A DNA stretch of 64,000 nt from positions 1,860,001-1,924,000 of the forward strand of contig NZ_JAVDYG010000001.1 in NCBI RefSeq assembly GCF_031458325.1, in the 5' to 3' direction. The translations under genes were made by a program, and so were the position numbers. The DNA is from Nocardioides marmoribigeumensis. Its GTDB lineage: Bacteria > Actinomycetota > Actinomycetes > Propionibacteriales > Nocardioidaceae. Position 1 is the first letter of the stretch. Every line of letters begins with the position of its first letter. Positions 17,646 through 64,000 of this stretch are shown one piece after another. The notes under the pieces were generated by a model, which ran no database searches, was not told the DNA's origin, and saw nothing but the letters and a program-made list of their open reading frames with translations.

Positions 17646-17683
17646 CGCTCGTCGAGGCCCGCCCGGGCCCGCCGACGCCCGTC

Positions 17684-17740
17684 GTACTCCGACGTACGTG
17701 CTGGACAAATCGGACATCCACCACGCATACGTCGGAGTAC
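17684..17740 (-). repeat. 57-bp dispersed palindromic element, copy 1
   Basis: The arms GTACTCCGACGTA...TACGTCGGAGTAC enclose an asymmetric centre, and the stem extends 5 bp outward on each side (CCGTC/GACGG, 17679-17745). The reverse complement of the copy at 63894-63950 matches it at 53 of 57 positions, including the centre, so the two are copies of one element in opposite orientation. It lies between convergent genes, 38 bp after the peroxidase stop and 44 bp from the GlgX stop, where it could also serve as a bidirectional terminator. Confidence 0.9.
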
Positions 17741-17784
17741 GACGGCGCCGGGCGCCGGCGCCGGGCGTTGGGCCCCAGCGGCGG

Positions 17785-57687: not shown

Positions 57688-57836
57688 ACGCCGAGTCCTG
57701 CCGGTCGGTGGTCCCCGAACCGCTTGGCAGGAGCGGGGGACCCACGTTCCACGGGCTGCCACCGCAGCCCTCGGGGTGAAGCCGCGCGAGCGGCCGGGCA
57801 CTCCTGCCCGAACCCGACAGCTGACCTCGCAGGCGT
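57688..57836 (+). ncRNA. c-di-AMP riboswitch (ydaO-yuaA type) in the rpf leader
   Basis: The 314-bp leader contains the conserved ydaO/yuaA elements in order: CCGAGTCCTGCCGG, GGCAGGAGCGGGGGACCCAC, CGGGGTGAAGCC, CGGGCACTCCTGCCCGAACC and CGACAGCTGACCTCGC. The closing P1 helix is ACGCC (57688-57692) with GGCGT (57832-57836). In actinobacteria this class commonly controls resuscitation-promoting factor and other cell-wall hydrolase genes. It ends 14 bp before the ATG of the transglycosylase gene, so ligand binding could affect termination or ribosome access. Confidence 0.88.
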
Positions 57837-57850
57837 GTGGAGGAACCTTC

Positions 57851-63239: not shown

Positions 63240-63800
63240 TCAGGCCGCGGGGCCGGCCTTGCGCGCCTCCTGCACCGCGACGAGCGCCTCGCGCAGCTGC
63301 TGGATCCAGTCGGCCTCGTGCTGGGCGACCAGGCGCACCGACCAGGCGAGGGCGTCGGAGCGCGAGCGGGCGACGCCGGCCTCGACGAGGGTGTCGAGGA
63401 CCTGCCGCTCGGGCTGGCGCAGCCGGGTCATCACCGGCACCGACAGGTGGGTGAACAGCACCCGGGTCTCGCCGCAGGCGGCTCCCCAGGCGACCTTGCG
63501 GTCGAACTGGCGCTCGGCCTCCTGGGCGATGCGGATGCGCTGGGCACGGGTCTCCTCGCGCCAGCGCTGGATGCGGCCGCGCTCGGCGGCACGCGCCTCG
63601 GTCCCAGGGTCGGTCCCAGGGTCGGTCCCGGGGTCGGTCTCGTCGCCCTCGTCGGCGGCGGGGGTCGCGTCCGAGGCGGTGCCGGGTGCCGGGATCCGCC
63701 CCACGATCACGATCTCGTCCTTGTCGAGGCTCACCTCGGGAGCCTCGACGAACCACTCGTCGGGAAGTCGCCCCGACAGCCAGGCACTGATCGTCGTCAT
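63240..63800 (-). CDS. Ribbon-helix-helix-like protein, unknown
   Basis: A 186-residue protein, ATG at 63800. The N-terminus (WLSGRLPDEWFVEAPEVSLD, KDEIVIVGRIPAP) is a compact strand-rich region; an acidic linker contains three DPGT repeats from a 12-bp tandem repeat (63601-63636); the C-terminal part (RQPERQVLDTLVEAGVARSRS, DALAWSVRLVAQHEADW) looks like a CopG/ribbon-helix-helix fold. Probably a DNA-binding regulator, though unrecognised. The leader carries two TGTAAT copies (63804-63822) that may be its operator or promoter. Confidence 0.65.
   Translation of the reverse strand: MTTISAWLSGRLPDEWFVEAPEVSLDKDEIVIVGRIPAPGTASDATPAADEGDETDPGTDPGTDPGTEARAAERGRIQRWREETRAQRIRIAQEAERQFDRKVAWGAACGETRVLFTHLSVPVMTRLRQPERQVLDTLVEAGVARSRSDALAWSVRLVAQHEADWIQQLREALVAVQEARKAGPAA
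63601..63636 (-). repeat. In-frame 12-bp tandem repeat coding DPGT
   Basis: GTCCCAGGGTCG occurs at 63601 and 63613 and, with one change, at 63625. On the minus strand it encodes three DPGT units in the linker of the ribbon-helix-helix-like protein. Unit length keeps the reading frame. Confidence 0.85.
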
Positions 63801-63802
63801 AC

Positions 63803-63825
63803 TGTGATTACAGCATTACACCGCA
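63803..63825 (-). promoter_or_regulatory. TGTAAT direct repeat in the leader of the RHH-like gene
   Basis: Read on the minus strand, the leader contains GTGTAATGCTGTAATCACAG, an AT-rich island in very GC-rich DNA, with TGTAAT repeated 8 bp apart and GTG/CAC ends. It ends a few bases before the ATG and could be an autoregulatory operator or a -10 region giving a nearly leaderless mRNA. Which of these holds is not decidable by eye. Confidence 0.45.
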
Positions 63826-63893
63826 ACGCGCACAACGGCCCCGCCGTTCGCCCTGGGCGGAACCGCGCCCACTGGCCCGGCGCCCCGCGCCGC

Positions 63894-63950
63894 GTACTCC
63901 GACGTACGCGTGGTGGATATCCGATATGTCCAGCGCGTACGTCGGAGTAC
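63894..63950 (+). repeat. 57-bp dispersed palindromic element, copy 2
   Basis: Perfect 17-bp arms (GTACTCCGACGTACGCG and CGCGTACGTCGGAGTAC) flank an asymmetric 23-nt centre (TGGTGGATATCCGATATGTC, then CAG). Its reverse complement matches the copy at 17684-17740 at 53 of 57 positions. It lies in the ~200-bp stretch right of the RHH-like gene, where no gene was found before the window ends. Confidence 0.9.
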
Positions 63951-64000
63951 CCGCGGGGGAACACCGGCGCGCGGGGTCGTGTTCAGCACACGTGAGCACC
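63951..64000. other. Terminal stretch with no supported gene
   Basis: After copy 2 of the palindromic element the last 50 bases show no ribosome site or coding pattern that I can support. A gene could begin just beyond the edge. Confidence 0.3.

Follow-up and report, generated by a model that had tools for sequence, protein, structure and literature searches.

The genome of Nocardioides marmoribigeumensis contains at least 19 full-length copies of a 61-bp palindromic element, which is probably a non-autonomous, lineage-specific mobile palindrome of REPIN architecture, moved in trans by an enzyme. The copies descend from one element, are dispersed over unrelated loci and are absent from the orthologous sites looked at in congeners; their ends are conserved around a variable centre, they lie 3' of genes, and no match to the Y1/RAYT profile was found. 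Two copies lie in the window, by which we mean the whole 64-kb stretch of DNA that was analysed (its start is genome position 1860001). The coordinates are collected in Table 1.

Table 1. Coordinates of the element in the window (window numbering) and in the genome (genome numbering)
Feature	Position	Strand	Basis or remark
Element copy 1 (c1)	17682..17742	+	between 3' ends of two convergent genes
Left conserved arm, copy 1	17682..17698	+	19-copy alignment
Centre of copy 1 (27 nt, asymmetric, semi-conserved)	17699..17725	+	19-copy alignment
Right conserved arm (inverted), copy 1	17726..17742	+	19-copy alignment
Element copy 2 (c2), orientation opposite to copy 1	63892..63952	-	sequence match
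Centre of copy 2	63909..63935	-	19-copy alignment
61-mer starts in genome, 1-7	166128, 739336, 901741, 911303, 912527, 1083806, 1677932		
61-mer starts in genome, 8-14	1679060, 1877682, 1923892, 2347600, 2442925, 2683534, 3107020		
61-mer starts in genome, 15-19	3133185, 3645282, 3706504, 3995302, 4182223		

An earlier note, made from the letters of the window, had described a 57-bp palindrome present twice in opposite orientation, and its count was reproduced: positions 17684-17740 match the reverse complement of 63894-63950 at 53 of 57 sites (differences at 16, 25, 32 and 44, which are spread over arms and centre). The unit is 61 bp, a 27-nt centre between two inverted 17-bp arms, over which the 19 copies align without gaps and copies 1 and 2 agree at 54 positions. 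The asymmetric centre, and not the arms alone, takes part in the 53/57 match, as the note had held; within the window, the centre sequence was found in two places only, namely copies 1 and 2 (expectation from shuffles, 0). Both copies fold better than shuffles on either strand (z from -5.1 to -7.9). When the inverted repeats listed for the window, seven in all, are ranked by strength, the two copies come first and joint second; of the remaining five, one spans 85 nt and four have loops of 2-6 nt. Elsewhere in the window, a c-di-AMP riboswitch (RF00379) was matched at 57703-57849 on the + strand with 57.6 bits.

Among the 19 copies, mean pairwise identity is 95.3% in the arms (columns 1-17 and 45-61) versus 73.0% in the centre (columns 18-44), and inside the centre it is 86% in columns 18-23, 75% in columns 24-37 and 58% in columns 38-44. 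The inner stem that had been proposed for the TGGTGGATRTCC strand is predicted for copies 1 and 2 on that strand, but it is not a general feature of the 19 copies because of the low identity of the last columns of the centre. A coding reading of the triplet-like variation at positions 38-46 was rejected, since it is the would-be third codon positions that do not vary. The consensus arm can pair with itself to give a small hairpin (GCGTAC-TCCGAC-GTACGC; 6-bp stem, 6-nt loop), which is weak (z = -1.8; 14 of 200 shuffles fold equally well). Pairing between the arms was scored over 18 copies (16 distinct rows): 11 of the 17 pairs are invariant and two have a two-sided change, and among the 272 arm-pair cells 97.4% pair, with two changed on both sides, three changed on one side and seven broken. 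Because the pairing measures were reached by only 8 to 16 of 500 shuffles, some covariation signal remains in the arms; this weak excess over the shuffles would be compatible with selection acting on the fold as well.

The copies in the 4.44-Mb genome were counted with a covariance model built on 18 copies, by which the best 150 of 6224 first-look candidates were scored, and 19 is therefore a lower bound. The model gave 41 matches, which comprise the 19 full-length places on both strands, one partial tandem region (both strands, 30.6 bits) and one weak further match (E 0.2); the weakest full-length copy scores 68 bits on its better strand. At up to three mismatches the whole element occurs seven times, and the 12-bp arm TACTCCGACGTA has 34 exact occurrences (reversed control pattern, 0), so that the family is neither confined to the window pair nor a matter of arms alone. 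Outside the full copies, exact arms are found only in tandem partial duplications adjoining copies (30-bp units at three loci, 18-bp units at one). The better-kept part of the centre alone, at up to two mismatches, has 17 matches, 13 in known copies and four elsewhere, the latter with two mismatches each (reversed control, one match). Three copies (c5, c6 and c7) are identical at 61/61 bp, c6 and c7 being 26 kb apart and c5 2 Mb from both, and their 40-bp flanks are unlike (28-62% ungapped identity); together with the number of copies, at least 19, this supports the earlier view that a single element gave rise to all of them. The flanks are C-rich before the element in 18 of the 19 copies and G-rich after it in 17, and in these GC-rich, diverged flanks neither a duplicated target site nor an exact boundary of insertion could be made out. 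Insertion into a locus-specific palindrome was also considered and rejected, as the own flank pairs of the copies fold no better than swapped pairs.

Gene context was assigned with a simple codon-position gene caller, whose output was corrected against the stops and ORF lists; for several neighbours the assignment was made by eye, and the gene names (PAC2, cysS, rpmB, dapB, pit etc.) were mostly read by eye from the translations. When mapped against gene ends, the copies proved to lie mostly 3' of genes: 18 of 19 are directly downstream of a gene, with 11 in convergent, seven in co-directional and one (c2) in divergent arrangement. Six of the 41 adjacent gene pairs in the window are convergent, and the binomial probability of 11 convergent copies among 19 is 1.6e-5 at this rate and 0.002 at a rate of 25%. 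The note had called both window copies intergenic. This holds for copy 1, which lies between the stops of its neighbours (17645 and 17785). Copy 2, the sole one of the 19 between divergent genes (minus-strand on the left, plus-strand on the right), is intergenic only if the right-hand gene starts later than called, for which GTG at 63992 is preferred; as called, the plus-strand ORF starts inside the element (ATG at 63926). A possible operator, TGTGATTACAGCATTACAC, was seen at 63803-63821 upstream of the minus-strand gene 63240-63800, and the region of the putative orthologue of this gene in genome G003 has a perfect palindrome, TGATGTAATCATGATTACATCA.

At up to three mismatches, the element was found in none of four congeners, and the covariance model had no match better than E 0.07 in them. 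With 17 joined flank-gene pieces as queries, putative orthologues of 12, adjoining 13 of the 19 copies, gave 33 congener regions. Judged by the listed inverted repeats, the element is absent from all 33 of these regions beside putative orthologues; a different inverted repeat with a score of 11 or more is present in 11 of them. For regions L184, L199 and L202 the stop-codon tracing went astray, and the hairpin scan still covered the full stretch. Where the facing neighbour is the same, the spacers between stops are longer here than in the congeners: between PAC2 and cysS the spacer is 119 bp here and 19, 7 and 48 bp in the three congeners compared, and the spacers between stops at the aminopeptidase, radical SAM and rpmB loci are 250 bp (versus 13 and 40 in congeners), 117 bp (versus 16 in a congener) and 227 bp (versus 59, 79 and 79 in congeners), respectively. 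Because most of these excesses are larger than the 61 bp of the element, GC-rich flank was gained along with it. We regard the copies as insertions, since they are absent from the four congeners and from the 33 regions. Among 341 genomes of the family, no match of comparable score was found outside this genome, and in the open-access literature, within the terms used, nothing on an element of this kind in Nocardioidaceae was found.

Mobilisation by a RAYT-type transposase, as the note had suggested, was not supported: no Y1 transposase (PF01797, Y1_Tnp) was found in this genome or in the four congeners. This search covered five genomes of the genus (one congener being 82% complete), and it was positive in 5 of 14 controls, including E. 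coli. A Y1 gene was found in 3 of the 341 family genomes, in a search for which 5 of the 14 controls were again positive, and this genome is not among them. With PF01797 as the profile searched, no mobilising gene was found. We infer that the movement is enzymatic and that the ends of the element are recognition sites; the mobilising enzyme would be something other than a Y1 transposase, or would have been lost.

All 34 exact TACTCCGACGTA arms belong to 61-bp elements or to the adjoining tandem partial duplicates, and thus the genome has no parent with exactly this end. This argues against the element being a MITE, that is, a DDE insertion sequence shortened by internal deletion, with the arms as its terminal inverted repeats, a reading we consider unlikely. 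Bacterial MITEs are short, non-autonomous, dispersed elements with terminal inverted repeats, and the repeats here are near-perfect; a MITE requires no Y1 enzyme, and none matched. The motif TACTCC...GGAGTA has TA at either end, which would suit TA-targeting types such as IS630/mariner, but the bases outside the TA (GCG/CGC) are conserved too (93% and 90%). Moreover, inverted pairs spaced by 0.6-4 kb within the window do not exceed 17 bp, and a search of phages and plasmids with one 61-mer (E up to 1) gave nothing similar. A parent whose ends have diverged may exist.

The location of 18 of the 19 copies after a gene, 11 of them between convergent genes, would also suit a functional site of the host, namely a bidirectional terminator or a stabiliser of mRNA 3' ends that gene conversion has spread and selection has retained, as would the high stability of the hairpins and the arm pairing, which is slightly better kept than in shuffles. 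We hold this to be very unlikely, because the 33 congener regions do without the element, even though 11 of them have another hairpin scoring at least 11. As regards termination, none of the 19 copies (oriented by the centre) is followed by TTTT or preceded by AAAA within 40 bp, the centre is partly conserved over its 27 nt, and ahead of its copy rpmB keeps a GC hairpin of its own with a short T-run behind it (CTCTTTGCT). Of the strong hairpins in a 400-kb sample of this genome, 30 have a loop shorter than 12 nt and ten a loop of 12-42 nt; the two strongest and the fourth of these ten are copies of the element. The element is no ordinary terminator, as a short-loop GC hairpin with a T-run is not what is found. 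Least credible of all is that the copies, scattered over 3' UTRs, act as a riboregulator or a structured non-coding RNA (the note had hinted at a structured RNA): the centre is asymmetric and semi-conserved and 97.4% of the arm cells pair with two two-sided pairs, a level reached by 16 of 500 shuffles, but broken cells outnumber two-sided changes seven to two, no Rfam family reaches its cut-off over the element (two miRNA families at E 0.004-0.005 are far below theirs) and comparable scores are absent from the other family genomes, so that the hint is weak even though the pairing still beats most shuffles.

The mobile palindrome of REPIN architecture would consist of two inverted recognition ends of 14-17 bp, kept a constant distance apart by a spacer that tolerates change, and an enzyme acting in trans would move it. 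If copying depends on the ends, these would stay near-invariant along replicating lineages and the spacer would drift; each copy would decay once inserted, and copies would survive where insertion harms least, directly downstream of genes.

Two genes are flanked by inverted pairs of the element. One, between c12 and c13 (L046:2433-3621), encodes a protein of 327 aa with a weak DUF2726 match only, below the cut-off; the other, between c11 and c4 (L044:1304-2588), encodes a GDSL lipase. At the corresponding position, G001 and G003 lack the former and G003 lacks the latter (identities partly by eye). In G002, an HspR-like/Hsp20 pair (assigned by eye; C1:1164860-1165900, L238:4860-5900) is flanked by inverted copies from that genome's own family of hairpins, CATGTAACGCGGGGTTATGGACG, with inverted ends of 27 bp. 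Inverted hairpin pairs may carry cargo genes; this idea was set aside, because every hairpin sits at a gene end anyway.

At E <= 0.01, the covariance model matched 13 other genomes of the 341. Four of the 13 best cross-genus loci look by eye like intergenic palindromes (L086, L087, L090 and L094), and a Bacteroidales MAG has one further palindrome (L054); these share similar inner arms (YGACGWACG or close) and a nearly equal length. One ancient cross-genus family was rejected: in a hairpin scan free of arm bias, the long-loop hairpins of relatives have mostly different arms, and the shared core therefore mainly reflects the search. L054 is the sole such hairpin in its genome, about 0.4 chance matches being expected with uniform bases; the strongest cross-genus locus, L086 (E 5e-6), may be a real homologue of the element. 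The arm pair with one free base per arm was found 0 times in viral contigs and once in the genome collection (the Bacteroidales locus), and a pattern of the two arms matched 117 of the 341 genomes, with many of the hits in what looks like coding sequence.

Hairpins with loops of 12-42 nt, some of which may lie in genes, numbered 19, 11 and 22 in 400-kb samples of G001, G002 and G338 versus 6, 7 and 5 after each sample had been shuffled locally once, so that the excess is slight in G002. Examples of multi-copy hairpins with different arms are, for G002, CATGTAACGCGGGGTTA and CAGATGCGTGGGAAAAGCAC and, for G338, TTTTGTATCTATC, whose centre recurs; in G001, GTTCCCGACGTACGGACGG-like arms occur in four hairpins that differ in their loops. 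In these three samples from the family, long-loop hairpin families look common, with sequences that seem private to each lineage. Other repeats were also seen. In this genome, a palindrome CACTCCCCGAGCGAA-ac-TTCGCTCGGGGAGTG occurs twice in the 400-kb sample (2393343-2393384 and 2449824-2449909), and G001 and G002 carry ACTGGYRCTCCCC arms similar to it; a GGTGGTCGAGCTTGTCGAGACCAC-type palindrome lies at 2520716-2520777, with a similar one in G001. In G002, a tandem array with a unit of about 22 bp containing GCGCGAAGCGTCA lies at a gene 3' end, downstream of pit (L189:265-460), and a related unit was found in L203 beyond fumarase. We suggest only tentatively that Actinobacteria of this family have REPIN-type mobile palindromes with lineage-specific ends and an enzyme other than Y1/RAYT, in which case the REPIN lifestyle would have arisen repeatedly.

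The placing of the element in a REP/BIME-like family by the earlier note stands, in the sense that it works like a REP doublet, BIME or REPIN, with inverted conserved ends at fixed spacing, a variable spacer and an extragenic, mostly 3' location. With regard to MITEs, no parent insertion sequence was found by the exact-arm search, and no target duplication was made out in the GC-rich flanks. According to the available parts of PMC3116915, the REPINs of Pseudomonas fluorescens consist of two highly conserved inverted 16-mers at a fixed distance with a less conserved spacer, and they are thought to depend on RAYT transposases. The element resembles them in its conserved inverted ends at a fixed distance, its hairpin and its extragenic, dispersed copies, and in the occurrence of single ends (PMC3116915); like their end, its arm may also fold into a small hairpin, a fold that is weak here. 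Unlike them, it has no Y1/RAYT match in its genome or in the four congeners, its single arms occur only as tandem partial duplications, and its host is an actinobacterium (PMC3116915); moreover, no GTAG/GTGG tetranucleotide is conserved at the foot of the hairpin (19 rows, by eye). Because this tag and a RAYT are both missing, the element was not filed as a REPIN proper. The CGTC-tagged REPs of PMC3733652, as described in the available parts of that paper, likewise form palindromic inverted doublets without a dedicated transposase, and they are mostly downstream of genes, between co-directional and convergent genes. By-eye comparison of their rules with the arm hairpin showed that the element lacks the unpaired CGTC foot, the 8-9 bp stem started by AT, the 4-5 nt loop and the CCA tail (PMC3733652). 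The same parts mention untagged REP-like sequences in M. tuberculosis, and no word starting with 'actinobacter' stands in the available main text. REPIN anatomy and evolutionary signature in a genome that, like its four congeners, has no Y1 match open the way to testing whether enzymes of another kind can drive such elements; for the CGTC REPs, PMC3733652, in the same parts, leaves the mover open. The element is also a fresh marker of gene-end mobility in a high-GC group. Membership among the REPINs is not claimed; by analogy, the element works like a REPIN whose mobiliser would be other than a Y1/RAYT transposase or would have been lost.
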